Source: Bacteroidetes bacterium HGW-Bacteroidetes-16 (GTDB lineage Bacteria; Bacteroidota; Bacteroidia; Bacteroidales; F082). Taken from it: a stretch of 37,939 bases of DNA. Where the stretch lies: NCBI GenBank assembly GCA_002840975.1, contig PHDN01000015.1, positions 148,326 through 186,264 of the forward strand, in the 5' to 3' direction. Below, piece after piece: positions 1-16,242 of the stretch (the first letter of the stretch is position 1; each line of letters starts with the position of its first letter). The position numbers and the translations under genes were made by a program. Below the pieces are notes generated by a model that searched no databases, had not been told where the DNA came from, and was given only the letters and a program-made list of their open reading frames with translations.

Positions 1-47
1 TTACCTTTTTTACAATAAAGTGTTGCTAAAGTAAAAGGAACTCTTTT

Positions 48-156
48 TTGCAGCTGGCTAAAGCCAAGCTGCAAGGGATTGATTCTAAGGAGTTTTATTC
101 ATTTAAGATGAATTTGTTTATTGGCCATCCATTGCAGTCTGGCTTTAGCCGACTGC
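48..156. repeat. Inverted pair of REP-like hairpins
   Basis: Two stem-loops, at 48-74 and 134-156, are built on the cores GGCTAAAGCC and GGCTTTAGCC, each extended by an outer GCAG..CTGC stem with a single bulged base. The reverse complement of the second has the same architecture as the first, including the bulged A after GCC, so they are two copies in opposite orientation about 60 bp apart. This is the layout of bacterial REP/BIME elements. They lie downstream of carB and could also help end its transcript. Family assignment is inference because only one pair is visible here. Confidence 0.55.
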
Positions 157-198
157 CCCTCCCAATAAAAATATTTCCAAAGTAAAACCTTGAAAGAA

Positions 199-3100
199 TT
201 AATATTCATCCCAGCTTTTTATACTTAAATCGCTCATTTTATATTTGGTAATGGCATAAATAAAAGCACTGGCCAAGCGCGCATTGGTGATGAGAGGAAC
301 ATTGAAGTCAACTGCCGCACGGCGGATCGTATAGTCATTGTTTAACTCTTCTGTACTCAGGTTTTTGGGGATATTAATCACCAAATCAATTTTTCTTTCT
401 TTAATCATCTGGTATGCATTAGGCGCCTGATCAATATCCGGCCAATTGACCATCATCGATTTAATTCCATTTTTTTTGAAGAAATCGTGCGTTCCTTTCG
501 TAGTGAATAACTTATAACCATTTTCGATAAGGAGATTCGCACTTTGCAAGAGTTCAGTTTTCGATCGTGTGGGCCCTGAAGAAATTAAGATGTTTTTTTC
601 AGGAATGCGGTAACCTACGGCCAACATACTTTTTAGAATAGCTTCGTAGTAATCATCACCAATACAACCCACTTCTCCTGTTGACGCCATGTCGACACCC
701 AACACAGGATCGGCTTTACTCAATCTCGAAAACGAAAACTGAGAGGCTTTTACACCAATATAATCGATATCGAAAAGGGTTTTATTTGGTTTCTCCACCT
801 TCTCACCCAGCATGATCCTTACCGCGATATCAATAAAATTGGTTTTGAGTACTTTGCTTACAAACGGTAAACTTCTGGAAGCCCGCAAATTACATTCAAT
901 CACCTTGATATCGTTGTCTTTGGCCAGGAACTGTATGTTAAACGGACCACTGATGTGAAGTTGTTCGGCAATCAGGCGACTTATTTTCTTGATTCTGCGC
1001 AAGGTTTCTACATACACTTTCTGTGGCGGAAACATGATGGTTGCATCACCCGAATGCACTCCTGCAAATTCGATATGTTCAGAAATGGCATAAGCGATAA
1101 TCTTTCCGTCATCTGCCACCGCGTCCATTTCTATTTCTTTGGCATCGGTGATAAACCTCGACACCACCACCGGATATTGTTTTGAAACCTGGGTGGCCAG
1201 ATTGAGAAAATGTTCCAGCTCGTCGCGGTTAGAGACAATGTTCATGGCCGCACCGGAAAGCACGTAAGACGGTCGGACCAACACAGGAAAACCCACTTCA
1301 TGGGTGAAATCGATGATTTCTTCCAGAGAGCTGAGTTCCTTCCATTCAGGCTGATCGACTCCCATTTTGTCGAGCATTTCCGAGAACTTAAAGCGGTTTT
1401 CGGCCCGGTCGATGTGCAGCGGACTGGTGCCTAAAATAGGAACCTTTTGTCTGTACAACCGCATGGCCAGGTTATTTGGGATCTGACCTCCGGTGCTCAC
1501 AATCAATCCTTTGGGAAGTTCCAGTTCCGAAATATCCAGGATGCGTTCCAGGGTAAGTTCCTCAAAATATAACCTATCCGAAACATCGTAATCAGTGCTC
1601 ACCGTTTCAGGATTGTAATTCACCATAATGGACCGGTATCCGCATTTTTGAACTGTTTGAAGGGCATTTACACCCGACCAGTCGAATTCAACACTGCTGC
1701 CGATGCGGTAGGCTCCTGAGCCCAGTACCATTACTGATTTCCCATCTCGCTCAAAATAAATATCATGCTCTGTTCCATGATACGTAAGGTACAAATAATT
1801 GGTTTTTGCAGGATGTTCAGCAGCGAGTGTGTCGATTTGTTTTACATACGGAATTATCCCCTGATATTTTCTGAATTGTCTGATATCCAATATGTCATCA
1901 TCATTTTGACCAATGATTCTATTGCTGAAGAGAAGACGTGCAAGCTGGAAATCAGAAAACCCTGCTTGTTTAGCTTCAAGCAACAGTCCTTTAGGAAGCT
2001 TTTCAGGCCCGGAATAGTTCATAAGTTCGTGTTCCAGTTGGCTGATATTTTCGAGTTTGTGCAAGAACCAACGGTCAATTTTCGTCAAGTCATGCACTTC
2101 TTCCACAGATATGCCCTGGCTAAAAGCCTGGGCAATGGCAAAAATTCTGGAATCTGTTGGATTATGAAGGGCCTCTCGCACATCGGGTATCATCATTTCG
2201 TTATTGGCAGCAAAACCATGCATGCCCATTCCAATCATTCGTAAACCTTTCTGAATGGCCTCTTCAAAGCTACGCCCAATGGCCATTACTTCGCCTACAC
2301 TTTTCATTGAACTGCCCAATTCTCTGGAAACACCTACAAACTTACTCAAATCCCAACGGGGAATTTTCACCACCAAATAATCCAACGCGGGTTCAAAAAA
2401 CGCAGAAGTGGTTTTGGTGATGTTGTTTTTAAGCTCGTGCAAGCCGTATCCCAGGCCAAGCTTGGCAGCCACAAAAGCCAAAGGATATCCGGTGGCCTTG
2501 GAGGCAAGGGCGCTCGAGCGCGAAAGTCGGGCATTGACTTCAATCACCCGATAATCTTCCGATTCGGGATCGAGGGCGTATTGCACATTACATTCTCCCA
2601 CAATACCCACCGCCTTTACAATTTTTATGCTCAGTTGTCGTAGTTTATGATATTCCCTATTGGTCAGTGTTTGCGATGGAGCCACCACGATACTTTCACC
2701 CGTGTGGATACCCAATGGGTCGAAATTCTCCATGTTACAAATTGTAAGACAATTGTCGTATCGGTCGCGGACTACCTCATATTCCACCTCTTTCCAGCCT
2801 TTCAACGATTCTTCCACCAAAATCTGAGTGGAATAACTAAATGCTTTATTGGCCAATTGAATTAATTCTTCATTGGTATTGCAAAAGCCGCTTCCCTGAC
2901 CTCCTAAAGTAAATGCTGCCCTTATAATAAGTGGAAAGCCAATAATTTCTGCTGCTTCAAGTGCTTTTTCAACGTCTGTTACCGCAATGGATTTGGGTGT
3001 TTTAACATGAATCTCGGACAATTTTTTCGAAAACATCTCCCTGTCTTCAGTTTCGATTATTGACTCTACGGGAGTTCCAAGTACCTGAATTCCATACTTC

Positions 3101-3420
3101 TCAATAATACCTGATTTATGGAGAGCGATGCCACAGTTCAGTGCAGTTTGTCCGCCAAAGGCCAGCAGCAGCCCGTCAGGTTTTTCTTTTTCGATGATCC
3201 GTTCCACAAAATAAGGCGTTACCGGCAGGAAATAAATCTTGTCGGCCATGCCTTCGGATGTCTGCACTGTGGCAATGTTCGGATTGATCAGGATGGTAAA
3301 AATCCCCTCTTCCTTCAGGGCCTTCAACGCCTGAGTTCCACTGTAGTCAAACTCGCCTGCTTCACCAATTTTCAGTGCACCTGAACCCAACAGCAGTACT
3401 TTTTTTACCTTGTTTTCCAT
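199..3420 (-). CDS. carB: Carbamoyl-phosphate synthase large subunit
   Basis: This subunit uses ammonia passed from CarA, bicarbonate and two ATP to make carbamoyl phosphate for pyrimidines and arginine. At 1073 aa it matches the usual length. The internal duplication is plain: GSGALKIGEAGEFDYSG near residue 12 opens the first ATP-grasp half, and GSGAYRIGSSVEFDWSG opens the second. The C-terminus, from about residue 930 (ILISSGPTRSK onward), is the MGS-like allosteric domain. The start overlaps the end of carA by 16 nt, so the two are co-transcribed and probably translationally coupled. Expression would fall under the leader described upstream of carA. Confidence 0.98.
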   Translation of the reverse strand: MENKVKKVLLLGSGALKIGEAGEFDYSGTQALKALKEEGIFTILINPNIATVQTSEGMADKIYFLPVTPYFVERIIEKEKPDGLLLAFGGQTALNCGIALHKSGIIEKYGIQVLGTPVESIIETEDREMFSKKLSEIHVKTPKSIAVTDVEKALEAAEIIGFPLIIRAAFTLGGQGSGFCNTNEELIQLANKAFSYSTQILVEESLKGWKEVEYEVVRDRYDNCLTICNMENFDPLGIHTGESIVVAPSQTLTNREYHKLRQLSIKIVKAVGIVGECNVQYALDPESEDYRVIEVNARLSRSSALASKATGYPLAFVAAKLGLGYGLHELKNNITKTTSAFFEPALDYLVVKIPRWDLSKFVGVSRELGSSMKSVGEVMAIGRSFEEAIQKGLRMIGMGMHGFAANNEMMIPDVREALHNPTDSRIFAIAQAFSQGISVEEVHDLTKIDRWFLHKLENISQLEHELMNYSGPEKLPKGLLLEAKQAGFSDFQLARLLFSNRIIGQNDDDILDIRQFRKYQGIIPYVKQIDTLAAEHPAKTNYLYLTYHGTEHDIYFERDGKSVMVLGSGAYRIGSSVEFDWSGVNALQTVQKCGYRSIMVNYNPETVSTDYDVSDRLYFEELTLERILDISELELPKGLIVSTGGQIPNNLAMRLYRQKVPILGTSPLHIDRAENRFKFSEMLDKMGVDQPEWKELSSLEEIIDFTHEVGFPVLVRPSYVLSGAAMNIVSNRDELEHFLNLATQVSKQYPVVVSRFITDAKEIEMDAVADDGKIIAYAISEHIEFAGVHSGDATIMFPPQKVYVETLRRIKKISRLIAEQLHISGPFNIQFLAKDNDIKVIECNLRASRSLPFVSKVLKTNFIDIAVRIMLGEKVEKPNKTLFDIDYIGVKASQFSFSRLSKADPVLGVDMASTGEVGCIGDDYYEAILKSMLAVGYRIPEKNILISSGPTRSKTELLQSANLLIENGYKLFTTKGTHDFFKKNGIKSMMVNWPDIDQAPNAYQMIKERKIDLVINIPKNLSTEELNNDYTIRRAAVDFNVPLITNARLASAFIYAITKYKMSDLSIKSWDEY

Positions 3421-4493
3421 GATTCTGTGTTTTTGATAAATTCTCCAAATAAAAAGGCTGTGTCGGTTGGACCGCTGGATGCTTCGGGATGAAATTGGGT
3501 GGTTAATATCTGTTTGCTCTTGTGTTTAATGCCTTCGTTACTGCCATCGTTCAGGTTGGTAAACCACACTTCCCAGCCGTTTGGTAAATTGTTGGCATCC
3601 ACGGCATAACCATGGTTTTGTGAAGTAAGATAAGCCTGATTGGTTCCGGCCATCAAAACAGGTTGGTTATGACTTCGGTGTCCGTATTTGAGCTTATAGG
3701 TTTGCGCTCCGGCAGCCAGAGAAACCAATTGATGTCCTAAGCAAATTCCAAAAATGGGTCGATCCTCATTGATGGATTTCTTCAAATTCAAAATGGTGGT
3801 CTGGCACATTTCCGGATTACCGGGACCGTTTGAAATAAACAAACCATCGTATTCTTCCTGGCTGTAATCATAATCCCAGGGTACACGGATAATGGTGGTA
3901 TCATATTTTAATAAATACCTGATGATGTTGTTTTTTACTCCACAGTCAATCAGTAAGATGCGGTTTTTTCCATGACCATAAACGTGCTTCTCTTTGATGC
4001 TCACCCGGCTCACCAGGTTGTCGTGGTTGGGATCGTAAAACGGAATGTCCTGATCGAAAACCACTTTGGCCAATAGGACTCCTTTCTCCCGGATGTGACG
4101 GGTAAGTGCCCGGGTGTCGATGCCGAACAAAGCCGGGATATTTTCCTCTTTTAACCATTGGGCCAGACTTTTTGATGCATTCCAATGGTGGTATTTTTCG
4201 GAGTAATCGGAAATAATCAGTGCATTAACATGAATATGCTCCGACTCGAAATGGGCCAACAGGTTATCTTCGACAGTCTTTCCAGGAACGCCATAATTAC
4301 CAATAGAAGGGTAGGTGAGGACTAATATCTGTCCATTGTATGAAGGATCGGTAAGGCTTTCGGGATAACCGGTCATGGCCGTGTTAAATACGATTTCTCC
4401 GGCAGCGGCGGTCTCCGCACCAAACGAGAATCCGGAGAGCTGCATTCCGTCTTCAAAGATCAGGGTGGCTTTTCGGTAGTTTTTTTCTTTCAT
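3405..4493 (-). CDS. carA: Carbamoyl-phosphate synthase small (glutaminase) subunit
   Basis: CarA hydrolyses glutamine and feeds ammonia to CarB. The protein is 362 aa. The N-terminal CPSase small-chain domain (LIFEDG, FNTAMTGYPESLTDPSY) is followed by a class I glutamine amidotransferase domain. The nucleophile is Cys251 in GICLGHQ, with the His/Glu pair in QFHPEAS. The ATG at 4493 lies only 8 nt after a run of nine T that ends a strong hairpin, so the ribosome binding region abuts a terminator-like structure. Together with the short ORF ahead of it, this points to attenuation control of carAB. Confidence 0.98.
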   Translation of the reverse strand: MKEKNYRKATLIFEDGMQLSGFSFGAETAAAGEIVFNTAMTGYPESLTDPSYNGQILVLTYPSIGNYGVPGKTVEDNLLAHFESEHIHVNALIISDYSEKYHHWNASKSLAQWLKEENIPALFGIDTRALTRHIREKGVLLAKVVFDQDIPFYDPNHDNLVSRVSIKEKHVYGHGKNRILLIDCGVKNNIIRYLLKYDTTIIRVPWDYDYSQEEYDGLFISNGPGNPEMCQTTILNLKKSINEDRPIFGICLGHQLVSLAAGAQTYKLKYGHRSHNQPVLMAGTNQAYLTSQNHGYAVDANNLPNGWEVWFTNLNDGSNEGIKHKSKQILTTQFHPEASSGPTDTAFLFGEFIKNTESWKTR

Positions 4494-4501
4494 GTGGTAG
4501 C

Positions 4502-4528
4502 AAAAAAAAAGACGGCTAATGCCGTCTT
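4502..4528 (-). terminator. Intrinsic terminator/attenuator in the carA leader
   Basis: On the minus strand a perfect 8-bp stem AAGACGGC/GCCGTCTT with a 4-nt loop (ATTA) is followed directly by T; nine T in a row end 8 nt before the carA ATG. This is a textbook Rho-independent terminator in form. It lies after a promoter-like box and immediately after the stop codon of a 25-codon ORF, so it is better placed as a carAB attenuator than as the terminator of xth, whose stop codon is 160 nt upstream. A ribosome at the leader stop codon (4529-4527) would cover the 5' arm and block the hairpin. Confidence 0.75.
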
Positions 4529-4604
4529 AACGTATATGATAAGTAATTTGGTTCGCGTCGTTGGTATCCTGAGGATGTCCAGTTAAGATTCCCGTTTTTT
4601 TCAT
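4527..4604 (-). CDS. Putative 25-aa leader peptide of carAB
   Basis: A short ORF starts at ATG 4604-4602 (Met-Lys-Lys-Thr-Gly) and ends with Tyr-His-Ile-Arg then TAA at 4529-4527. The stop overlaps the first base of the attenuator stem. It begins about 25 nt after a TATATTTG box, so it would be the first ORF on the transcript. Six of its 25 residues are Gln, Asn or Asp and its last sense codon is Arg (CGT). These are suggestive for a glutamine-using, arginine/pyrimidine pathway, but no single codon is strongly repeated. A model like E. coli pyrBI, where translation coupled to transcription prevents termination, fits the geometry. Coding status is inferred from position; conservation has not been tested. 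Confidence 0.5.
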   Translation of the reverse strand: MKKTGILTGHPQDTNDANQITYHIR

Positions 4605-4628
4605 TGATGAATGAATAAGTTCGGGGTG

Positions 4629-4636
4629 CAAATATA
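4629..4636 (-). promoter_or_regulatory. -7 promoter box for carA leader transcript
   Basis: TATATTTG on the minus strand matches the Bacteroidota TAnnTTTG -7 consensus. Transcription would begin around 4620, giving about 16 nt before the leader ORF. No good TTG -33 box sits at the usual 19-21 nt spacing; the nearest is 25 nt away. Confidence 0.55.
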
Positions 4637-4687
4637 AACGAATGTTTTAAGCGGACTTTTCCAATGTTCAAAACTTTGTAAAAGTAA

Positions 4688-5455
4688 TTAAAACTCCAGT
4701 GTGATTCCTACCGGACAATGGTCGGATCCAATCATCTCCGGAAGGATAAAAGCCTCTTTTACATTGTCTTTGATGGAATGGCTCACTAGAAAATAATCAA
4801 TTCTCCAGCCCACATTTTTTGCACGGGCGTTAAACCGGTAACTCCACCAGCTGTAAGCCACTTCATCGGGGTGTAATAGGCGAAAAGTATCTACAAACCC
4901 ATTGCTGATCAGGTTGCTGATGCCATCTATTTCTACCTGGGTGTAACCTGCGGTCTTGTTGTAATTTGATTTGGGATGGGCCAGATCGATGGGTTGGTGA
5001 GCTACATTTAAATCGCCACACAGGACAACGGGTTTGGTTTTTTCCAGGTATTTAAGGAAAGCCATAAAATCGGCATCCCAGGTGGAACGATAGTCTAACC
5101 GTGCCAGTTCGCTGCCCGAATTGGGGACATAGACGTTTACCAAAAAGAATTGCTCGTATTCAGCAGTTAAAATACGCCCTTCCAGGTCGTGGTGTGCAAT
5201 GCCCATATCGCGTAACATTCGTAAAGGTGCCTGTTTCGTGACAATGGCAGTTCCGGAATAACCTTTCCGTTCGGCTGAATTACAATAAAATGAAAGTTCG
5301 CTGTGCTTTAAGACTTCTGCCACCTGATCGTCCTGGGCTTTGGTTTCCTGCAGGCAAAGTGCATCTGCATTCAGTTCGTTTATTTTATCGAGAAATCCTT
5401 TCTTTTCGATGGCCCGGATGCCGTTTACGTTCCAGGATATGAGTTTTAGTATCAT
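4688..5455 (-). CDS. xth: Exodeoxyribonuclease III (AP endonuclease)
   Basis: A Mg-dependent base-excision repair nuclease of the EEP superfamily. The protein is 255 aa from the ATG at 5455. Motifs in order: ISWNVNGIRA near the start, QETKAQ (metal-binding Glu), VYVPNSG, CGDLNVAH (Asp/Asn active site) and the terminal GSDHCPVGI (Asp-His). The frame is open further upstream, but the family begins with the KLISWNVNG strand, so the internal ATG is preferred. Its stop is 195 bp ahead of carA on the same strand; a promoter box and terminator lie between, so the two are probably separate transcripts. Confidence 0.95.
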   Translation of the reverse strand: MILKLISWNVNGIRAIEKKGFLDKINELNADALCLQETKAQDDQVAEVLKHSELSFYCNSAERKGYSGTAIVTKQAPLRMLRDMGIAHHDLEGRILTAEYEQFFLVNVYVPNSGSELARLDYRSTWDADFMAFLKYLEKTKPVVLCGDLNVAHQPIDLAHPKSNYNKTAGYTQVEIDGISNLISNGFVDTFRLLHPDEVAYSWWSYRFNARAKNVGWRIDYFLVSHSIKDNVKEAFILPEMIGSDHCPVGITLEF

Positions 5456-5530
5456 GAGTTTTAGTATTTTTAGCGAAAATAATAGAAAATGTCGTGGAGG
5501 AAGGGCGGAGTATAATTTTTTATTACGGAG

Positions 5531-5605
5531 GCACAAAGCACACGGAGGAAAGTATTCTTTTAATAAAACTGATTCAACTTCTCTTTGTTCCCGGTGGCTT
5601 TGTGG
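5531..5605. repeat. Short imperfect inverted repeat between genes
   Basis: CACAAAGC near 5531 faces GCTTTGTG near 5598, and the flanks (acacgg versus ccggtg) extend the symmetry. Words of this kind (cacaaagcac, tttgtggtt) recur in spacers of many Bacteroidota genomes, from memory. It could act as a weak terminator for the peptidase gene that ends at 5618 on the minus strand. Only one copy is visible in this window. Confidence 0.3.
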
Positions 5606-5617
5606 TTTTTCCCTACC

Positions 5618-7357
5618 TTATTTGGTAGTTTTACCGTTATACATTTTTGTGAAAACGTTGTCTACAGGCTCCCAAAGCTCAATTTTATTACCTTCCGGAT
5701 CCATGATGTGCACAAATTTACCATACTCATAGGTCTCGATTTCATCCAGAACGGTAACGCCGTTTTCTTTCAGTTCCTTTACCAGATCTTCCAGATTTTC
5801 AACCCGGTAGTTAATCATAAACTCCTTCTCTGATGGCTCAAAATAGGTAGTTTTTTCTGCAAACGGACTCCATTGTAAATATCCTTTTTGGTCAGGATTG
5901 TCGCTGCTTCTGAATTCAAAAAGCGATCCGTATTCGTTGGTCACCAGACCTAAATTATTATTATACCAATCGTTGAGCATTTTAGGATCTTTGCTTTTGA
6001 AAAACACACCTCCAATACCCGTTACTTTTTTCCTATTTTCCATTTCAATTTTAGATTTATGGTTTTCCTGCGAAAGCCATGCATGAATACTGTCAAGTAC
6101 TTGTTTTTGTTGGCCTTCCGGCAGATTGTTGATTCTGGTTCTGTGACTTCCCCCTTTTTTTACGATCTTAATGCTGTTGGTTTGACCATCCAAATCAACA
6201 GCAGTTGCCGACCAGGGATCATTTTCTCCGTAAATAAAGATCATATTTTTCGCCAGGTGGCGAAGATAGAAATCCACTTTATACATCAGGTCAGGTTCAA
6301 AAACCACCTGCTCACCTTTTGGGAAGGTGAAATCAAAAGTTGGGTTTGACTGATAAGAAGTATATTCTTTAAATGGCTTAATATCATATCCATAAAGACC
6401 AATTTCGTGCATGGCCTGATAAAAATAAGGTTGGAGTTTTTCGATGCCTTGGTTGGATATCCAGTCGATGCCGGCCACCTTGTCGAGGTGGTTTACCATG
6501 CGGGCAGCATTTTGACTTGAAGTGGGGATCTTGTCGCAGTCGATCGTACCCCACTGCCAGAAGGCGAAAGAGTATTCAAACACCAACAGGTCATAGGCTT
6601 TCTCAAAACCCATGGAATATGTGAGGTGCTTTTTATTGGCCAGATTAATAAATTCATCCAGGTATTTCTTCTTGTCTTTAAGCATGGTGAGCTGATAGTT
6701 GAGAACGGCGTTTCTACAAGCCGAATCACCAACCTCAGCTAAAAATGGGTAAACCCTTTTGTCTTCAGAAGAAAATGCCACTGGAGCCACATAAGGAACA
6801 CAAATATCGGCATCTTCGGGATAAAAGTACTTGAAGTAATTAACCGTCTGACCGCCTTTGCTGATGCCGGTTGCAATTAACTTTCCAGGATAGATTTCCT
6901 TAACGAACCCAGCAATGCGGTGGTGATCGGTGGCTGCATTTTCCACACTCAAAAACTTCCATGCCAGACTATCAGGTCTGGATTCGCTAAAATACCGGTG
7001 TTCAATGCATACCTGATTGGCATCGAGATATTTGGTAAGCTCGTATTCAAAGTCTTTTTCAGTAGCCGAATTGGCACCATAACCTTCGGTGATAAATACC
7101 ACCGGCTGGTCAAAATTCCGGTGTGAGATAAAAACCCGTTGATTAAATGAGTCAAGACAACCTCCATGATAATCAACAGGTTGATTAAAATAAACCATGT
7201 ATTTTTCACTAAAATCGGTGTTGGTTTCCAAAGGTTTAAATGAAAAATCGTAAGTAGATTTCAATTGATCGAGCCGCATCTTAAGAGGCTGTGCAAAAGC
7301 TGTTTGAAAACCAATACTCAATAATATGAGCAGCGAAAAGGTGTAGATTTTTTTCAT
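5618..7357 (-). CDS. Secreted S37-family peptidase fused to a VOC/glyoxalase-like domain
   Basis: Residues 1-22 form a signal peptide (MKKIYTFSLLILLSIGFQ..AFAQ). Residues to about 438 form an alpha/beta-hydrolase peptidase of the S37 (PS-10 tripeptidyl aminopeptidase) type. The candidate catalytic triad is Ser in GISKGGQT, Asp in YGENDPWSA and His in GGSHRTR. From Met439, 141 residues read as a complete VOC-fold protein (VTGIGGVFFKSKDP ... MDPEGNKIELWEP), normally a free cytosolic protein. A secreted peptidase with a cytosolic VOC tail is odd. One extra A in the tract at 6063-6066 would give a stop 13 nt before Met439, so two separate genes are the likely ancestral state. The start at 7357 is chosen because the signal peptide begins there. 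Confidence 0.8.
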   Translation of the reverse strand: MKKIYTFSLLILLSIGFQTAFAQPLKMRLDQLKSTYDFSFKPLETNTDFSEKYMVYFNQPVDYHGGCLDSFNQRVFISHRNFDQPVVFITEGYGANSATEKDFEYELTKYLDANQVCIEHRYFSESRPDSLAWKFLSVENAATDHHRIAGFVKEIYPGKLIATGISKGGQTVNYFKYFYPEDADICVPYVAPVAFSSEDKRVYPFLAEVGDSACRNAVLNYQLTMLKDKKKYLDEFINLANKKHLTYSMGFEKAYDLLVFEYSFAFWQWGTIDCDKIPTSSQNAARMVNHLDKVAGIDWISNQGIEKLQPYFYQAMHEIGLYGYDIKPFKEYTSYQSNPTFDFTFPKGEQVVFEPDLMYKVDFYLRHLAKNMIFIYGENDPWSATAVDLDGQTNSIKIVKKGGSHRTRINNLPEGQQKQVLDSIHAWLSQENHKSKIEMENRKKVTGIGGVFFKSKDPKMLNDWYNNNLGLVTNEYGSLFEFRSSDNPDQKGYLQWSPFAEKTTYFEPSEKEFMINYRVENLEDLVKELKENGVTVLDEIETYEYGKFVHIMDPEGNKIELWEPVDNVFTKMYNGKTTK

Positions 7358-7531
7358 GAAGCGAAAATAGGAAATTTGTAGCAATGAATACTGATCCTGG
7401 CCCGGTCAGAATGATTCACCTAATCGAGTGATAATTCGTTAAAAATCCTTAATCATGTTGATGATAAGTATTATCAAGTGAGAACATGCCTGGCCTAACC
7501 GGTAGAGGGATTAAATCGGTCACCACAAACA

Positions 7532-7560
7532 AATCCGTGTCCATCCGTCCAATCCGTGTC
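7532..7560. repeat. Triplicated ATCCGT word in spacer
   Basis: ATCCGT occurs three times within 29 bp (aatccgtgt, catccgtcc, aatccgtgt) just downstream of the rubrerythrin stop. I recall similar strings between genes in other Bacteroidota, so this may be a copy of a dispersed repeat. No function is evident. Confidence 0.3.
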
Positions 7561-7580
7561 ATCAGTGTTCTACCCCGACG

Positions 7581-8156
7581 CTAGTAATTTTCTTCCTTAA
7601 TTTCAAAGTAAGATTGTGGATGCAGACAGGCCGGGCATTTTTGGGGTGCTTTCTTGCCTTCGTGCAGATAGCCACAGTTGCGGCACTTCCAAACAATCTT
7701 GCCGTCGCGCTCAAAAACATGCCCTTCTTCCAGGTTTTTGTACAAAGTGCGGTACCTTTTTTCGTGTGCTTCTTCAACCCTGGCAATCATTTTAAAAGTA
7801 ACAGCCACATCCTTAAAGCCTTCCTCCTCGGCTATGCGGGCAAACTCGGGATACAATTCTGTCCATTCTTCATTTTCGCCATCGGCTGCAGCTTTCAAAT
7901 TTTCCAGCGTGGTGCCAATTTTTCCGGCAGGATAGGTGGCGGTTATCTCAACAGGTCGGCCTTCCAGATAGCTGAAAAAACGTTTGGCGTGTTCCTTTTC
8001 ATTCAGTGCAGTTTCGGCGAAAAGTCCGGCTATCTGTTCCAGCCCTTCTTTTTTTGCCTGACTGGCAAAATAATCATAACGCATCCGTGCCTGCGATTCG
8101 CCGGCAAATGCTTTTAACAGGTTTTGTTCTGTACGGGTTCCTTGTAGACTTTTCAT
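7581..8156 (-). CDS. rbr: Rubrerythrin
   Basis: A non-haem di-iron peroxidase that reduces hydrogen peroxide in the cytoplasm of anaerobes and microaerophiles. The protein is 191 aa. The N-terminal four-helix ferritin-like domain carries the iron ligands in FAGESQARMRY, ETALNEKEHAKRF and the EEAHEKRY repeat. The C-terminal rubredoxin-like zinc ribbon or Fe(Cys)4 site has the two pairs WKCRNCGY and KCPACLHP. It stands alone with its own TATATTTG box at 8176-8183. Its presence suggests an anaerobic or oxygen-stressed lifestyle. Confidence 0.96.
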   Translation of the reverse strand: MKSLQGTRTEQNLLKAFAGESQARMRYDYFASQAKKEGLEQIAGLFAETALNEKEHAKRFFSYLEGRPVEITATYPAGKIGTTLENLKAAADGENEEWTELYPEFARIAEEEGFKDVAVTFKMIARVEEAHEKRYRTLYKNLEEGHVFERDGKIVWKCRNCGYLHEGKKAPQKCPACLHPQSYFEIKEENY

Positions 8157-8175
8157 GTGTTCTTGATTTAGGTTT

Positions 8176-8183
8176 CAAATATA
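8176..8183 (-). promoter_or_regulatory. -7 promoter box of rubrerythrin
   Basis: TATATTTG on the minus strand ends 19 nt before the rubrerythrin ATG and matches TAnnTTTG. No clear TTG -33 box is at the usual spacing. Confidence 0.55.
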
Positions 8184-8384
8184 ACCTAATCGAGGCGTTT
8201 TTCCTATTTTAAAAATCGTGTGTATTTGATATTCAGTGATTTTACAATGGTAAATATGCAGATTTTCAGCTTCGTATATTCGTATTTTGATTGGTTTTAA
8301 ACTGTGATTTAACCCCTTTTAAAGGCCTTATGCAAAAGTTGCTTCCTGGTTTTTTCATATTTTTACCTCCCGAAAAAATAGCCA

Positions 8385-8933
8385 ATGAACCACGTAAATC
8401 AATCGCTTGTTGACCTTCTGATGGAGGAACATTCGGGGCAACGTTCTGAATTGATCGCCATGCTGGCTTTCGAAAAACCTGAAGTCTGTGAAGAATTGGT
8501 TCGCCTGACTTTTTCGAATGAGGAACCGCTTTCGCGAAGAGCAGCATGGCCACTGCGGAAACTCTATGACCATCATCCTGAAAAAATGATACCCTATATC
8601 GATTATTTTGTGCTTCAACTACAGGATGTAAAAAGTGAATCTGTATTGCGAACTATCTTGTCCATACTTTCCAGATGTACCATTCCGGAAGAATATCATG
8701 GAATGATGCTTGAGTTTTGCGAATCTAAAATGCTCAATGCCAACACTTCTATTGCCTCCGTGGCGAATTGTATTGATATTTACTACGCCATTGCTTCCGG
8801 TGAACCCGACTTGTTGCGTGAACTGGATTTGATGTTCGAAATTCTTCGGCCCACTGCATCAGCTGGCATCAAGTCGAAGATGGGAATTATTCATCGAAAG
8901 ATGAAGAAAACGACCTCGGAACGAGGGTATTAA
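8385..8933 (+). CDS. HEAT-like helical repeat protein of unknown function
   Basis: A 182-aa protein with no signal peptide or membrane segment. It is strongly helical, and its successive amphipathic pairs look like HEAT-type repeats: ELVRLTFSNEEPLSRRAAWPLRKLYDHH, then MIPYIDYFVLQLQ, then SVLRTILSILSRC. Such proteins usually act as scaffolds or binding surfaces. The spacer before the ATG holds TATTTTTA, a weak -7 candidate. It is 70 bp ahead of the CvfB-like gene, which has its own promoter box. I recognise no catalytic motif. Confidence 0.8.
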   Translation: MNHVNQSLVDLLMEEHSGQRSELIAMLAFEKPEVCEELVRLTFSNEEPLSRRAAWPLRKLYDHHPEKMIPYIDYFVLQLQDVKSESVLRTILSILSRCTIPEEYHGMMLEFCESKMLNANTSIASVANCIDIYYAIASGEPDLLRELDLMFEILRPTASAGIKSKMGIIHRKMKKTTSERGY

Positions 8934-8971
8934 TCCAAGGCAAAATCAATATGATGTATCCGTGCTTTGAT

Positions 8972-8979
8972 TACCTTTG
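8972..8979 (+). promoter_or_regulatory. -7 promoter box of the S1/CvfB-like gene
   Basis: TACCTTTG fits TAnnTTTG and lies 24 nt before the ATG at 9004. It overlaps the in-frame TTG at 8977, which argues that this TTG is not the start codon. Confidence 0.5.
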
Positions 8980-9003
8980 CAGCGAATCTCAGAATGGCAT
9001 CCT

Positions 9004-9840
9004 ATGGAAATTGGAAAGTACAATACACTCACAGCATTACGCTCGACGGATAACGGTTTTTACCTTGTAGATGCAGATAAAAATGAAGTCCTCCTTCCGA
9101 ATAAATATGTGCCTAAAGGTTTTACGGAAGGTGATGAAATTGAGGTGTTTTTATACCGCGATTCGGAGGATCGAATGGTGGCCACAACCGAGATGCCTGA
9201 CATTCAGTTACATGAATTTGGTATGCTTGAAGTGAGAGATGTGAACAAGGTTGGTGCCTTCCTCGACTGGGGGTTGGAAAAGGATCTGTTGGTTCCCTTT
9301 TCAGAGCAAAAATTCAGGCTGTTTCCCGGAAAAAAGTGCGTTGTGTTTTTAAAGTTGGATCAAAAAACCCAACGCCTGGTAGCCACTACCCGCATCGAAC
9401 ATTATCTGGAGCGCGATGATGTGGAACTTGAACCGGGTGAGAAGGTGGATTTGCTGATTTGCGAACCCACCGAAATAGGCATGCAGGTGATTATCAACAA
9501 CAAATACCTGGGATTACTTTATGATAATGAGCTTTTTCAGGCCGTCATGCCGGGTGAACATGTAACAGGCTATGTAAAAAGAGTGCGTCCCGATAAAAAA
9601 GTGGATGTCATGCTGCAGAGACCCGGTTACGAACATGTGGAGCCTGCGGCCCAAAAAATTCTGGATATACTCAAGGCCAACGATAATTTTCTGGGCATCA
9701 CCGACAAAAGTGAGCCTGTCATCATCCTGGCCAAACTTGAAATGAGTAAAAAGACCTTTAAAAAAGCCATTGGTGCTTTATACAAGCAGCACAGGATCCG
9801 CCTGGAAGAGGATGGGATTTATCTGATGGCGGAGGAGTGA
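9004..9840 (+). CDS. S1-domain RNA-binding protein, CvfB family
   Basis: A 278-aa cytoplasmic protein with tandem S1-like OB folds and a C-terminal winged helix. Visible elements are the N-terminal NEVLLPNKYVPKG, the second OB fold VRDVNKVGAFLDWGLEKDLLVPFSEQ, the third with GYVKRVRPDKKVDVMLQRPG, and a final helical domain KKTFKKAIGALYKQHRIRLEEDGIYL. This order matches the CvfB/YitL family (S1 repeats plus winged helix), known in Staphylococcus as an RNA-binding regulator of virulence factors. Its role in Bacteroidota is not established. The ATG at 9004 is preferred over the upstream TTG, which lies in the promoter box. Confidence 0.88.
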   Translation: MEIGKYNTLTALRSTDNGFYLVDADKNEVLLPNKYVPKGFTEGDEIEVFLYRDSEDRMVATTEMPDIQLHEFGMLEVRDVNKVGAFLDWGLEKDLLVPFSEQKFRLFPGKKCVVFLKLDQKTQRLVATTRIEHYLERDDVELEPGEKVDLLICEPTEIGMQVIINNKYLGLLYDNELFQAVMPGEHVTGYVKRVRPDKKVDVMLQRPGYEHVEPAAQKILDILKANDNFLGITDKSEPVIILAKLEMSKKTFKKAIGALYKQHRIRLEEDGIYLMAEE

Positions 9841-9883
9841 GGGAGTTTTGGATGTGATGACCGTATTCCTTTCTCATTTTTTC

Positions 9884-9891
9884 TACTTTTG
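9884..9891 (+). promoter_or_regulatory. -7 promoter box of lepB
   Basis: TACTTTTG followed by CACCC fits TAnnTTTG. Transcription would start near 9898, leaving a leader of about 70 nt before the lepB ATG. Confidence 0.5.
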
Positions 9892-9967
9892 CACCCATTA
9901 TCTCTTAACAAAAATTAACGCGTTGATAATAAGATAGCTGCTATCTTGCAGACAATTATTTAATCCA

Positions 9968-11488
9968 ATGAATATGCTCGCATTATTTGTATTAATCCCA
10001 TTATCTTTCACAATTCCAACGCTTTTCGCGTGGCCCATGTTTGTAAAAGCCGGTCGAAAAGGTTGGGAGTCGGCGGTGCCGTTTTATAACTTATATGTGT
10101 TTTTACTCATCATTAAAAAGCCCATGTGGTGGTATGCATTACTGCTTTTCCCGTTTTTAAATGTGTTTATGTACATGTTGATGTTGGTTGAACTGGTGAA
10201 ATGTTTTGGGAAGTATCATTTGTTAGATCAGTTTCTTGCCGTTGTAATTCCTTTTGTTTATCTGCCATACGTGTCAATAAGGGAAAACGCGCAATTTATT
10301 GATCCTGACGACCAGCCTGTCCGCAAGAAAACAGTAGTTCGTGAGTGGACAGATGCCATTATTTTCGCTGTGGTGGCCGCCACCATTATCCGTACTTTTT
10401 TGTTGGAGGCTTATACCATACCAACTTCTTCTATGGAAAAATCGCTGTTGGTAGGCGATTATCTTTTTGTGAGCAAGATTACTTTCGGCCCGAAAATACC
10501 CAACACGCCTATTGCTTTCCCATTCGTGCACCATACACTTCCGTTCACCGAATCGGTAAAATCGTATGTGGAATGGGTCAAGTTTCCTTTTTACCGTTTT
10601 CCGGGATTCCGGTCGGTTCGTCATAACGACGCAGTGGTGTTTAACTACCCCGCAGGCGATACCGTTTCCACACGCTTTCAGAGCAATGTGAGCTACTATA
10701 GCCTGATCAATGAATATGGAAGAAACCGGGTTTGGACGGATCATCGCAACTTTGGTGATATCGTTGCCCGTCCGGTGGACAAGCGCGAAAACTATGTTAA
10801 ACGATGTATCGGCCTACCGGGCGACACCCTCAAAATCATTAATCGTCAAGTATACTTGAATGGGGTAAAAGCAGAGAATCCTGAGAAACTGCAATATCAG
10901 TATCATGTGATTACTGATGGAAGCGGTATAAACCCCATAGTACTCAGTAAATTAGATATCACTGAAGGCTTCAGAACCAATGTGCCCGGAGACTTTGTCT
11001 ATAACCTCACCAATGAAAGCCGCGATGAGTTGGCCAAATTGCCGATCGTCAAATCGATTGAGCCTTTTAACGAGCCCGCGGGAAAATGGTTCCCGGAGAT
11101 ATTCCCCTATGATTCGGCCTTTAAATGGAACCGTGATAATTTTGGCCCTTTGTACATCCCTCAGCAAGGTGTTCCCATTCATCTTACCCTGACAAACCTG
11201 CCCCAATATACACGGGTGATTGAAACTTATGAAGGAAACAACCTGGAGGTGAATAACGGTCAGATATTAATTAATGGCCAGGCAACAACCACCTTCACGC
11301 CTAAAATGAATTACTATTGGATGATGGGTGATAACCGCCACAACTCTGCCGATTCGCGTTACTGGGGATTTGTCCCCGAGGACCATGTCGTGGGAAAACC
11401 CGAATTTGTTTGGCTTTCGCTCGACAAGGACAAATCATTGTTTGGTGGTAAAATCCGGTGGCAACGCCTTTTTACGGTCATCAATTAA
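9968..11488 (+). CDS. lepB: Signal peptidase I
   Basis: A membrane serine protease that removes signal peptides from exported proteins. It has 506 aa, much longer than typical bacterial enzymes but common for Bacteroidota. The N-terminus holds several hydrophobic segments (residues 1-105) and another transmembrane helix at about 130-147. The catalytic Ser155 is in IPTSSMEKSL and the general-base Lys278 in YVKRCIGLPGD. The GDNRHNSADSRYWGFV box is near residue 455. A large insertion lies between the Lys and GDNRHNS boxes. It has its own promoter and no close operon partners. Confidence 0.96.
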   Translation: MNMLALFVLIPLSFTIPTLFAWPMFVKAGRKGWESAVPFYNLYVFLLIIKKPMWWYALLLFPFLNVFMYMLMLVELVKCFGKYHLLDQFLAVVIPFVYLPYVSIRENAQFIDPDDQPVRKKTVVREWTDAIIFAVVAATIIRTFLLEAYTIPTSSMEKSLLVGDYLFVSKITFGPKIPNTPIAFPFVHHTLPFTESVKSYVEWVKFPFYRFPGFRSVRHNDAVVFNYPAGDTVSTRFQSNVSYYSLINEYGRNRVWTDHRNFGDIVARPVDKRENYVKRCIGLPGDTLKIINRQVYLNGVKAENPEKLQYQYHVITDGSGINPIVLSKLDITEGFRTNVPGDFVYNLTNESRDELAKLPIVKSIEPFNEPAGKWFPEIFPYDSAFKWNRDNFGPLYIPQQGVPIHLTLTNLPQYTRVIETYEGNNLEVNNGQILINGQATTTFTPKMNYYWMMGDNRHNSADSRYWGFVPEDHVVGKPEFVWLSLDKDKSLFGGKIRWQRLFTVIN

Positions 11489-11628
11489 TTAACTAATAGT
11501 TTGCCGGTGTTCGTGTCGAAATCGATTGTTATTAACAAATGACAGTTTTTTTCTGTTGGAAATTATTTGTATCCGACCTCTTTTTCTCAACAATCCTATA
11601 TATATTAGCTTTGTAAAGAGGGGTTTGT

Positions 11629-11636
11629 TACTTTTG
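11629..11636 (+). promoter_or_regulatory. -7 promoter box of the TPR-aroE run
   Basis: TACTTTTG followed by CAGC ends 32 nt before the TPR gene ATG. A TTG lies 15 nt upstream, which is closer than usual. Confidence 0.5.
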
Positions 11637-11668
11637 CAGCAAATTATTGAAAAGAGAGATCGCCAAAT

Positions 11669-13081
11669 ATGGACAGAGATTTTAGCTGGATTGATGATGA
11701 GGAATTGAAGGAGCTGATCGATCGCTTCGATGCCATGTTACAGCAAGAGAGTTGGAGCTTTTTTGATGTGGATGATTTTGAAATATTGATTGATTTTTTT
11801 CTTGAATTTCAGGATGTTGAATATGCCACCATGGCCATTGCCGAAGCACAAAGACAACATCCCAACAGCAATGCTTTTCAGGTAAGAAGCGCCCGGTTGC
11901 TTGCCGCCAACAGTAAATACTATGAGGCTTTGGAACAACTCAACGAGCTGGAACTAACCGAAGCCCCCGGAGAGGAAATTTTTCTTGCCAAGGGTGAAAT
12001 TTACAGCCTGATGAACAAACATGAATTGGCCATTGAAGAATTTCGTAAATCGATTCCATTCTCAGAAACACCTGAAGAAGTTTATGCTGCCATTGCTTTC
12101 GAATTTGAAAACATGGACGATTATACCAATGCCATCCTCAACTTGAAGGAAGCACTCAGAGTGAATCCTGCATCTGAAAACCTCATTCATGAAATCGCCT
12201 TTTTCTTTGAAACGACCTCTCGTTTCGAAGAAGCGATCGAGTTTTTTAAGGAGTTTCTCGATTTAAATCCCTATTCAGTTATGGCCTGGTTTAACCTCGG
12301 AATTTTTTATAACTCCATGTTTTTCTACGAAAAAGCCATCGAAGCCTATGAATATGCCCTGGCCATCGACGAAGAGTTTGCATCAGCCTATTTTAATATT
12401 GCGAATTCCTATTCAAATGTGGATGAATATCAGAAAGCCATTGAATTTTACACGGAAAGTCTGCGTTTTGAAGAGGTAGACCCGATTACCTATTTTTATA
12501 TTGGCGAATGCTACGAGAGCCTGTACGACACAAAGAACGCCATGTTTTTTTTCAATAAGGCAATCGAAGCGGATGAACTGATAGCAGAAGCCTGGGCAGG
12601 AATAGGAAGGCTTATGGTGAAACAGGACCAGGTGAAGACCGCCATCAATTACTATGAAAAAGCACTCGACCTACAGCCAGATGGTATTGATTTTTTATTC
12701 GAATTGGCTGAGATTTATTTGAAAATGAGTCATTGGGAAAAAGCAGAAGCATTGTATTCAAAAATTGTTGAGCTCGACAGCAGTGTGGTTGATGCATGGA
12801 TCAACCTTTCAGAAAGTGTATTGCCAAATGAAGGAACCCAGGGAGCCATCGACGTTATCGAAAGAGCACTCGAGAACAACAAAGACCAGGCTGCTTTGTG
12901 GTATCGATTAGCAGGATATCTTTACCGATCAGGTAAAGTTCAACAGGCGTATTTTTTTATTGAAACAGCCATGAAACTGGATGTTGAAAAAATCGAATTC
13001 CTGTTAGAATACCTCCCAGAACTCAACAATGAACCTCGCTTTAATGAATTGTTGTCTTTATATAAAAGCACACGTGATTAG
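11669..13081 (+). CDS. TPR-repeat protein
   Basis: A 470-aa soluble protein made almost wholly of tetratricopeptide repeats. At least ten units are recognisable, such as EVYAAIAFEFENMDDYTNAILNL, MAWFNLGIFYNSMFFYEKAI and AWAGIGRLMVKQDQVKTAI. Each shows the small residue-aromatic pattern of TPR helices. The N-terminus is acidic (MDRDFSWIDDEELKEL) and there is no signal peptide. It heads a plus-strand run with ALDH, DUF368 and aroE, with gaps of 43, 33 and 6 bp. It likely acts as a protein-interaction scaffold; the partner is unknown. Confidence 0.92.
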   Translation: MDRDFSWIDDEELKELIDRFDAMLQQESWSFFDVDDFEILIDFFLEFQDVEYATMAIAEAQRQHPNSNAFQVRSARLLAANSKYYEALEQLNELELTEAPGEEIFLAKGEIYSLMNKHELAIEEFRKSIPFSETPEEVYAAIAFEFENMDDYTNAILNLKEALRVNPASENLIHEIAFFFETTSRFEEAIEFFKEFLDLNPYSVMAWFNLGIFYNSMFFYEKAIEAYEYALAIDEEFASAYFNIANSYSNVDEYQKAIEFYTESLRFEEVDPITYFYIGECYESLYDTKNAMFFFNKAIEADELIAEAWAGIGRLMVKQDQVKTAINYYEKALDLQPDGIDFLFELAEIYLKMSHWEKAEALYSKIVELDSSVVDAWINLSESVLPNEGTQGAIDVIERALENNKDQAALWYRLAGYLYRSGKVQQAYFFIETAMKLDVEKIEFLLEYLPELNNEPRFNELLSLYKSTRD

Positions 13082-13124
13082 ATATATAGATTCTTATGAC
13101 GAAGTGCTTACTTAACTCACGGCT

Positions 13125-14504
13125 ATGATATCCAATAGTGAATTCATTTCCGTTTTCGACCGTCAGGGTGTTTTTTTTGCACAACAAAAAACGAAGCCTT
13201 TGTTCTTTCGGCTTGAGGCACTGCGGAAATTGAAGGCTGCGATTCTTCAATATGAACAGGAAATCATGCAGGCATTACAAGCTGATTTGCACAAATCAAA
13301 TTTTGAGTCTTATGCTACCGAAATTGGCTTTATCCACGAAGAAATTGGCTATCATCTGCATCACCTAAAACATTGGATTAAACCTGAGCGTGTATCCTCC
13401 TCTTTAACCTCTTTTCCGTCCAAATCCATGATACTCAGCGAACCCATGGGTCGGGTGCTGATTATTACTCCATGGAACTATCCTTTTCAATTGGTAATGG
13501 CCCCCTTGATAGGGGCCATCAGTGCAGGCAATACGGCCATTATAAAACCCTCCGAGATTTCGCAGCATACGGCTGCCATCATACAAAAAATTTTAAATGC
13601 AATTTTCAGCGATGAATTTATTGCTGTTTTCCAGGGTGATGCTTCTGTATCACAAGCACTTCTGAAACTTAAGTTTGATCACGTCTTTTTTACCGGAAGT
13701 CCACGGGTGGGGCAATATGTCATGCAGGAAGCTGCCAAACAGCTCATCCCTGTAACATTGGAGTTAGGTGGTAAAAGCCCTTGTATTGTGGACCGTGATG
13801 TAGACATTGAATTGGCTGCCCGCCGAATTGCCTGGGGGAAATTTCTGAATGCCGGACAAACCTGCATCGCACCCGATTACCTGATGGTACACGAAGCTAT
13901 TGCTGAGAAGTTTTTAGAAGCGTTGGTTCATGCAATTAAAACTTTCTATGGGGACGATCCATTTACCTCCGAAGCATTTCCCCGAATCATTACCAGGGAA
14001 AATACACTCCGGCTTGGTTCGCTCATCAATGGGTGCACAGTCTTTTATGGAGGGAAATTCATGGTGGATGAACACTATATGGAGCCGACCATCCTCACCG
14101 ATGTAAATCCCGACATGCCGGTGATGCAACAGGAAATTTTTGGACCTGTGTTACCGGTGATGTTGTTTTCAAACCTGGAGGAAGTAGTGGATTTTATCAA
14201 TAAAAGGCCAAAACCGTTGGCGTTGTATTGTTTTTCTAGCAACAGAAAATTTATTCACCGCGTATTACATGAAATACCTGCAGGAGGTGTTACCATTAAC
14301 GATACCCTCATGCACATAAGCAATAACAGGTTGCCATTTGGCGGAGTAGGAAATAGCGGCATGGGGCATTATCATGGTAAATTTTCTTTCGATCTCTTTT
14401 CCCATCGAAAATCTGTAATGGTCAGGGCAACCTGGCTTGATATTCCTTTGAGGTACGCACCTTTTGGTAAAAAATTAAACTATTTAAAAATGTTGATGAA
14501 ATAA
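13125..14504 (+). CDS. Aldehyde dehydrogenase (ALDH3-like class)
   Basis: An NAD(P)-dependent oxidation of aldehydes to acids. At 459 aa it has the short length of the class 3/fatty-aldehyde group. Motifs: PWNYPFQL (oxyanion/cofactor Asn), KPSEISQHTA, FTGSPRVGQYV, Glu213 in TLELGGKSP and the nucleophile Cys247 in NAGQTCIAPDY. The C-terminal NDTLMHISNNRLPFGGVGNSGMG segment is typical of ALDH3. The physiological substrate cannot be told from sequence. It lies between the TPR protein and DUF368 in one direction and is probably co-transcribed with them. Confidence 0.93.
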   Translation: MISNSEFISVFDRQGVFFAQQKTKPLFFRLEALRKLKAAILQYEQEIMQALQADLHKSNFESYATEIGFIHEEIGYHLHHLKHWIKPERVSSSLTSFPSKSMILSEPMGRVLIITPWNYPFQLVMAPLIGAISAGNTAIIKPSEISQHTAAIIQKILNAIFSDEFIAVFQGDASVSQALLKLKFDHVFFTGSPRVGQYVMQEAAKQLIPVTLELGGKSPCIVDRDVDIELAARRIAWGKFLNAGQTCIAPDYLMVHEAIAEKFLEALVHAIKTFYGDDPFTSEAFPRIITRENTLRLGSLINGCTVFYGGKFMVDEHYMEPTILTDVNPDMPVMQQEIFGPVLPVMLFSNLEEVVDFINKRPKPLALYCFSSNRKFIHRVLHEIPAGGVTINDTLMHISNNRLPFGGVGNSGMGHYHGKFSFDLFSHRKSVMVRATWLDIPLRYAPFGKKLNYLKMLMK

Positions 14505-14537
14505 ACTGGTAAAATTAACTGTTTGAAAATAAAGAGA

Positions 14538-15446: not shown

Positions 15447-15452
15447 CTGGTA

Positions 15453-16199: not shown

Positions 16200-16216
16200 C
16201 GCTGACCACTTCTTCC
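16189..16216. terminator. Hairpin between convergent aroE and gcvP
   Basis: GGAAGAAGT (16189-16197) and ACTTCTTCC (16208-16216) form a perfect 9-bp stem with a 10-nt loop spanning the aroE stop codon. The two genes converge here, so it may serve either strand. No long T tract follows, so efficiency is uncertain. Confidence 0.45.
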
Positions 16217-16242
16217 AATGGTTCCTAAAATGATACTCTGAA

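Follow-up and report, generated by a model that had tools for sequence, protein, structure and literature searches.

A candidate translation-coupled attenuator shared by carAB and pyrBI in a family of Bacteroidales

Background

In this study, we describe the leader of the carAB operon in the uncultured Bacteroidetes bacterium HGW-Bacteroidetes-16 (family F082 of the Bacteroidales), using a stretch of 37,939 nucleotides of its contig PHDN01000015.1 (positions 148,326 to 186,264; hereafter the window) together with the genomes of its relatives. Between carA and the gene upstream of it lies a short leader with its own promoter box, a 25-codon open reading frame (ORF) and an intrinsic terminator, which an annotation of the window made from the letters alone (the first-pass annotation) had taken for an attenuator of carAB. 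Attenuation at the pyrBI operon of Escherichia coli, and its need for coupling of transcription and translation, are established (PMC5021804; this and the other papers are cited for the passages drawn on here). We report that the same set of parts, with similar spacing, is conserved across genera of the family and recurs at the pyrBI operon of the same genome. The arrangement makes it probable, in our judgement, that carAB and pyrBI are under translation-coupled transcription attenuation responding to pyrimidine nucleotides.

Results and discussion

Organisation of the carA leader

The features of the locus, all on the minus strand, are listed in Table 1. Results confirmed the presence of every part described by the first-pass annotation: the promoter box, the 25-codon ORF, a TAA overlapping the base of an 8-bp hairpin, nine T, and the carA ATG 8 nt beyond the end of the T tract. 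Two of the nine T pair in the stem, so that seven follow it (Table 1). The last two bases of the leader TAA are the first two of the terminator stem. The consensus TAnnTTTG, which the box fits, is that of the Bacteroidota primary sigma factor (PMC7366714; PMC9723704 section 15).

Table 1. Features of the carAB locus in the window
Feature	Coordinates	Strand	Description
Endonuclease/exonuclease/phosphatase family gene	5536-4688	-	51 nt separate its end from the promoter box
Gap holding the carA leader	between 5536-4688 and 4493-3405	-	194 nt, between the nuclease-family gene and carA
-7 promoter box TATATTTG	4636-4629	-	fits TAnnTTTG; predicted from sequence
Predicted start region CCCC-G	4626-4622	-	expected +1 at C4624 (n5 after the box); first purine G4622 (n7)
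Predicted 5'-terminal hairpin	4625-4591	-	outer CCCG/CGGG, inner UUCAUU/AAUGAA; encloses the leader AUG
Leader ORF (MKKTGILTGHPQDTNDANQITYHIR)	4604-4527	-	25 codons; ATG 4604-4602, TAA 4529-4527
Intrinsic terminator hairpin AAGACGGC-ATTA-GCCGTCTT	4528-4509	-	8 bp (5 G-C), 4-nt loop
Terminator T tract	4510-4502	-	nine T, the first two paired in the stem and seven beyond it
carA, carbamoyl-phosphate synthase small subunit	4493-3405	-	362 aa; PF00988 and PF00117; TIGR01368 over cut-off
carB, carbamoyl-phosphate synthase large subunit	3420-199	-	1073 aa; CPSase domains; overlaps the end of carA

No promoter fits between the terminator and carA, and transcripts from the leader promoter must therefore read through the terminator to reach the gene. 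A role of the hairpin as 3' terminator of the nuclease gene upstream was also considered. This was rejected, since that gene ends before the promoter box, the box and the leader intervene, and the hairpin lies about 159 nt past the nuclease stop codon.

carA leaders across the family

The family search covered 149 member genomes, 56 of which had a carA match below 1e-60. The upstream region was read for 50 of these; five partial matches and genome G059 were left out. A terminator was found upstream of carA in 43 of the 50 loci, mostly with a stem of the type (A)GACGG..CCGTC(T), so that the GACGG-type stem of the window recurs across the family. Removal of seven loci without a terminator, three without a recognised box (L008, L013, L018) and one without an ATG left 39 testable leaders. 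The first ATG was required to lie at least 6 nt past the box, an ORF was said to reach the hairpin foot when its stop was at most 6 nt before the core stem, and expected values were obtained from dinucleotide shuffles.

In 34 of the 39 leaders, against 14.5 expected, the ORF from the first ATG extended at least as far as the hairpin foot, and in 26, against 10.2 expected, it crossed the terminator; a test that allowed any ATG was weaker (30 through-reading leaders observed, 14.0 expected). Counted by genus, with the furthest-reaching ATG, the frame passed through the terminator in 9 of 13 genera, ended at the foot in three and stopped early in one. The four species of the window's genus that have carA retain the box (identical in all four), the ORF length, the stop position and the hairpin, and the fifth species, G042, has no carA. 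Elsewhere in the family, 8-29 nt separate the box from the first ATG. The distance from ATG to hairpin was 66-90 nt in 71 of 84 tested leaders (29/39 at carA and 42/45 at pyrB, described below), compared with 78 nt in the window and 89 nt in E. coli. The pairing of ORF and terminator, on which the first-pass annotation had built its proposal that carAB is set by ribosome progress through the leader, is thus kept within the genus and in most genera, with translation of the leader being the part we infer.

Among the 26 through-reading carA leaders, 16 end on or beside the carA start. The ATGA stop/start overlap was not counted as evidence of translational coupling, because any frame ending in ATGA overlaps automatically when carA begins with ATGA.

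The same arrangement at pyrB

In the genome to which the window belongs (G000; 3.94 Mb, 96.6% complete), pyrB scores over the TIGR00670 cut-off and pyrI over that of TIGR00240. Their leader has the box TATCTTTG followed by a 43-codon ORF that crosses a terminator (AAAGACGGTC..GACCGTC-T8), with its stop codon beyond the terminator and 12 nt before pyrB. This is the full pyrL-like form, and the comparison with E. coli pyrBI made in the first-pass annotation was apt. When E. coli pyrBI was run through the same script as a positive control, the pyrL frame crossed its terminator, giving the same picture as the pyrB leader of the window's genome.

From the 138 family genomes with pyrB, 50 loci were read, only two of them from g15, by far the largest genus. 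Five loci were left out: L202 at a contig end, L190 and L198 with no terminator reported by the finder (a hairpin is visible by eye in L198), and L195 and L204 with no recognised box. In the 45 testable leaders the first-ATG ORF reached the foot or went beyond it in 43 (12.5 expected) and crossed the terminator in 40 (10.3 expected); the any-ATG test was again weaker, with 42 observed and 11.8 expected. By genus, using the furthest-reaching ATG, the frame read through in 14 of 15 genera and ended at the foot in one. No clear carA was seen in g15, for which one weak match was listed, yet both of the pyrB leaders read from this genus (L227 and L229) carry an ORF that crosses the terminator.

Chance expectation within the genome

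In about 438 kb of the window's own genome, 303 genes had sufficient sequence upstream to be examined, and 3 of them were preceded by a strong terminator ending at most 45 nt from the ATG. Inspected by eye, the other two terminators lie within about 30 nt behind the end of an upstream coding sequence (CDS), and the carA terminator is the unusual one of the three for that reason. The combined stem and T-tract pattern GACGG..CCGTCTTTTT has three sites in the entire 3.94 Mb, at carA, at pyrB and at an apparent ordinary 3' terminator; the reversed pattern, used as a control, gave one match.

A reading in which the hairpin lowers carAB output as a constitutive partial terminator or processing site, with no regulation, would be in keeping with a general terminator scan of window positions 1-19000, which was uninformative, with 21 terminator-like patterns found and 20.3 expected. 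It does not account for the joint conservation of promoter, ORF, spacing and terminator at two operons of one pathway, and the pyrE leaders of the family lack a terminator in 30 of 30 cases. We therefore regard it as very unlikely.

Leader peptides and the signal

Leader peptides from different genera show no relationship to one another, and the frame in which the terminator is read also changes from genus to genus. Codon changes between close pairs comprised 68 non-synonymous and 29 synonymous ones, with 34, 36 and 51 changes at codon positions 1, 2 and 3. It is therefore the open frame and not the peptide that is kept, as expected for control of the pyrL type. The lack of peptide conservation speaks against an arrest peptide and against codon-specific sensing of Arg or Gln, both of which were rejected on this ground, and is in line with mere passage of a ribosome.

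The first-pass annotation had left the signal open between pyrimidine, glutamine and arginine. Amino-acid attenuation of the trp type, in which a shortage of charged tRNA would stall the ribosome at Arg or Gln codons and let an alternative antiterminator hairpin form, draws on the facts that the carAB product feeds arginine synthesis and that the window leader holds two Gln codons and ends in an Arg codon; leader-peptide attenuators have also been suggested for amino-acid operons of Flavobacterium (PMC9723704). The leader is nevertheless not notably rich in Gln, Asn and Asp, as had been stated, with only two of each among its 25 codons, and at L003, from one of the four species of the genus with carA, His replaces the Arg of the window's last codon. 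Besides the codon changes given above, no shared run of any codon, those for a regulated amino acid included, was seen by eye among the listed leaders, and the one minimum-energy fold computed for the window leader contains no antiterminator. The same device stands at pyrBI, which does not serve arginine, and by eye no such leader was seen at the ornithine carbamoyltransferase gene (argF) of the same genome. Sensing of arginine or glutamine by the leader is accordingly unlikely, and attenuation of the trp type in particular highly improbable, while pyrimidine supply is the likely signal.

A binding regulator would place the signal elsewhere: an analogue of PyrR, or a small molecule, could bind the 5' hairpin and control the terminator, with the ORF being incidental. 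The 5' hairpin does covary across genera and is specific to these leaders (65/89 compared with 3/87 control boxes; see below). However, a search with one PyrR model (NF003549) gave no match at E <= 1e-3 in the window's own genome and none over cut-off in 41 genomes, and no Rfam leader element such as a riboswitch or T-box reached the gathering score, the only match at that score being a tRNA elsewhere in the window. The hairpin loops and sequences vary widely, with no constant recognition core by eye, and an incidental ORF would not remain open across the terminator in 40 of 45 pyrB leaders. We consider such a regulator unlikely.

The composition of the leaders may fit a pyrimidine signal. Over the 15 nt next to the hairpin the T fraction is 0.44, compared with 0.25-0.28 further upstream, with little change in A; it is in this stretch that control of the pyrBI type would require a UTP-sensitive pause.

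Start region and 5' hairpin

In a flavobacterium, the corresponding box spans -12 to -5 (PMC9723704 section 15), and for this reason n5, the fifth nucleotide after the box, is the expected +1. Of 89 family leaders, seven of whose boxes were placed by eye, all have a purine at n7 and all but one (88 of 89) have a pyrimidine at n5; transcription starts in Bacteroides are usually purines (45% A, 41% G; PMC7366714). Three pyrimidines followed by a purine (YYY-R) at n4-n7 occur in 79 of the 89 leaders; the frequency was 14 of 87 among control boxes, and 4 of 23 in a stricter set with TTG near -33. The control boxes are pattern matches and not proven promoters, and they include the window's carA box.

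In a predicted 5'-terminal hairpin, the pyrimidine tract is paired with an arm further downstream; most leaders, judged by eye, have their AUG in this hairpin or enclosed by it. Starting at n5 in place of n7 was predicted to add at least 2 kcal to the hairpin in 65 of the 89 leaders and in 3 of the 87 control boxes, one of which is the window's own carA box. A leader's own tract fitted its own arm better than did the tracts of other leaders in 74 of 89 cases (5 equal), and the fit exceeded that of other pyrimidine tracts in 24 of 28 gene-by-genus groups, with one worse. In the predicted folds, n5 is paired as C-G in 64 leaders and as U-A in 10, with 15 unpaired; n6 is paired as C-G in 46, U-A in 28 and A-U in one, with 14 unpaired. 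This covariation suggests a start-site switch like that of pyrC, wired into the attenuator, at start sites that are predicted.

Opening of the AUG region was predicted to be harder by at least 1.5 kcal from the n5 start in 38 of 46 pyrB leaders and 17 of 42 carA leaders, and the start-site layer appears clear at pyrB and weak in the carA leader of the window. In the four window-genus carA leaders the difference in AUG opening is below 1 kcal; their outer helix is short (3-4 bp), and the choice of start would barely alter access to the AUG. It weighs against the switch that three of these four gain nothing and that the window's own leader is a weak case. A further point against the switch is that the mean unpaired probability of the AUG is 0.39 from one start and 0.43 from the other, the AUG being partly paired either way. 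A two-stage switch, in which a nucleotide-sensitive choice of first base (C or U, or the purine 2 nt on) gates the leader AUG through the 5' hairpin and leader translation in turn gates the terminator, is put forward tentatively, as a possibility we would rate below even.

The carA genes of genus g3 (L008-L010, L012, L014, L021, L031) are without the GACGG attenuator and keep the pyrimidine-tract and purine start context. The context is present in 8 of 8 leaders, L033 of g10 being counted with those of g3, and the hairpin gain in just two of the eight. Because the start context is kept there without the attenuator, the start-site layer may act directly on g3 carA.

Proposed mode of action

Under translation-coupled attenuation, transcription would begin just past the TATATTTG box. 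Without a ribosome close behind the polymerase in the 25-codon leader, the GACGGC hairpin would form and transcription would end at the T tract. When pyrimidine nucleotides are short, the polymerase would slow in the U-rich stretch ahead of the hairpin; in addition or instead, transcripts would start on the purine, leaving the leader AUG more accessible. A ribosome that arrived in time would halt on the leader TAA, at the foot of the hairpin, and block the hairpin, and carAB would be transcribed. In most relatives the ribosome would read on through the hairpin, as at pyrBI, and the pyrBI leader of the window's own genome would act in the same mode. Translation of the leader ORF, coupling in this phylum, UTP and CTP as the signal and the direction of control are, in this proposal, what we infer from the arrangement of the parts.

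Several points weigh against this interpretation. Transcription-translation coupling, which the mechanism presupposes in this phylum, is not reported there in the literature consulted. The leader ORF of the window is not significant taken singly: 36% of dinucleotide shuffles of this leader (L001) are open to the hairpin foot, and with a chance of 0.36 in the single window the significance of the ORF comes solely from the relatives. In the window's genus the carA ORF ends at the hairpin foot and does not cross it, which is compatible with blocking and less compelling. Some leaders depart from the pattern. The carA leaders L007 and L020 stop 12-15 nt short of the hairpin, L011 has a different terminator and an early stop, the first ATG of L023 and L051 stops early (though another ATG extends further), and the pyrB leaders L196 and L208 stop early; in genera g3 and g10, the finder reported no terminator for seven carA genes. 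The P values of the first-ATG comparisons (4e-11 for carA and 9e-25 for pyrB) are inflated because species are treated as independent, and genomes G007 and G069 even share identical leaders (L050/L164 and L214/L216). Lastly, T is only modestly enriched beside the terminator, which may be explained in other ways.

Comparison with known systems

The leaders described here resemble E. coli pyrBI with its PyrL leader in having a short ORF, an intrinsic terminator near the gene and similar spacing in the same pathway. The ORF crosses the terminator in the pyrB leader of the window's genome and in most carA leaders of the family, and its length at that pyrB is 43 codons, compared with 44 for E. coli pyrL. 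They differ in that the device is also present at carAB, the promoter is of another type, a 5'-terminal hairpin encloses the leader AUG, and the carA ORF of the window's genus ends at the hairpin foot. The carA leader of the window was not filed as a strict member of the pyrL type, because its stop codon precedes the hairpin. The phylum is also without Shine-Dalgarno sequences, as stated for flavobacteria (PMC9723704 section 15).

In the switching mechanism of pyrC and pyrD in E. coli and Salmonella, a transcript starting with C forms a 5' hairpin that hinders translation, and a start at a downstream purine weakens the hairpin (PMC7818426). The pyrimidine tract followed by a purine, and its pairing, are similarly conserved in the family leaders, at start sites that are predicted here; in pyrC and pyrD it is the start codon of the enzyme itself that is controlled, whereas here it would be that of a leader ORF upstream of a terminator. 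At carA of Pseudomonas, a Rho-independent terminator lies between the start site and the gene, attenuation has been proposed, and pyrimidine is involved; a leader peptide is reported for P. aeruginosa, and the same paper saw no leader ORF in P. syringae (PMC4997734). That system, likened to ours by description and not by sequence, differs in having ArgR sites at the promoter. At E. coli carAB, according to the review cited, attenuation is not involved at P2, and P1 is subject to UTP-dependent reiterative transcription (PMC6245113).

The suppression from the terminator foot proposed for the carA leader of the window also has a parallel. In the rph-pyrE attenuator of E. coli, translation ending at the terminator foot suppresses the terminator. 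There the whole rph gene is translated, compared with a 25-codon leader with its own promoter here.

The first-pass annotation knew of no such attenuator for carAB in this phylum. We likewise found no report of one from Bacteroidota in the open-licence literature searched, and the statement holds for the phylum in those texts; it does not extend to Pseudomonas, in view of the proposal for carA cited above.

Other pathway genes and wider distribution

At pyrE, none of 30 family loci showed a gain in start-tract hairpin, in addition to the lack of terminators, and the YYY-R context was present in three. The pyrE ATG lies exactly at n5 (4 nt past the TAnnTTTG box) in 17 of the 30 loci (L324-L353) and at n6 in three more. 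The pyrE mRNA of the family is probably leaderless, and the placement of the ATG hints that n5 is +1 in this family. Neither box nor terminator was found in the 170 nt upstream of pyrD-like genes at the 22 readable loci of 23; 15 of the 22 are over the family cut-off, none of them from the window's own genome, in which no true pyrD was recognised.

Outside the family but within the order, 68 of 136 pyrB hits and 99 of 101 carA hits were read and yielded no more than scattered candidates, in which no resemblance to the family studied was noticed. Leader ORFs cross the terminator at carA loci L113, L123, L128 and L138, and end at or in it at carA loci L068 and L141 and pyrB loci L279, L294, L296, L299, L300 and L276, the last by eye only. 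At pyrB loci L235, L248, L242 and L232, an upstream CDS seemingly ends just ahead of a GC-rich hairpin and T tract situated 23-41 nt from pyrB, too near for a separate promoter; these may be attenuators of the rph-pyrE type behind a full gene. In a sample of the phylum, similar pyrB genes were present in 4 of 148 genomes, the window's own included, and with so few no statement is possible beyond the order.

The window's own genome has three carbamoyltransferases, namely pyrB, the ornithine enzyme and a knotted carbamoyltransferase YgeW (L167 on contig C32; TIGR03316 over cut-off), which lies closely behind another ORF. Within the window, the ORF at 5618-7384 on the minus strand matches peptidase S37 (PF05576) and has a C-terminal glyoxalase-like stretch (PF00903); it is possibly a fusion, or two genes joined in reading through a TTG start.

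Conclusions

Attenuation coupled to leader translation would give a repressor-free account of pyrimidine control in a family in which PyrR was not detected (41 genomes, relatives included), and it makes coupling in Bacteroidota testable by one reporter and one start-codon mutation. The solution resembles that of E. coli pyrBI and may have arisen independently of it. Should the start-site layer prove real, about 110 nt of DNA would hold two nucleotide-sensing principles connected as a relay. The two-stage switch, if true, would join in one relay the principles of pyrC and pyrBI, which are separate in E. coli, and would imply tight coupling of transcription and translation in Bacteroidota.

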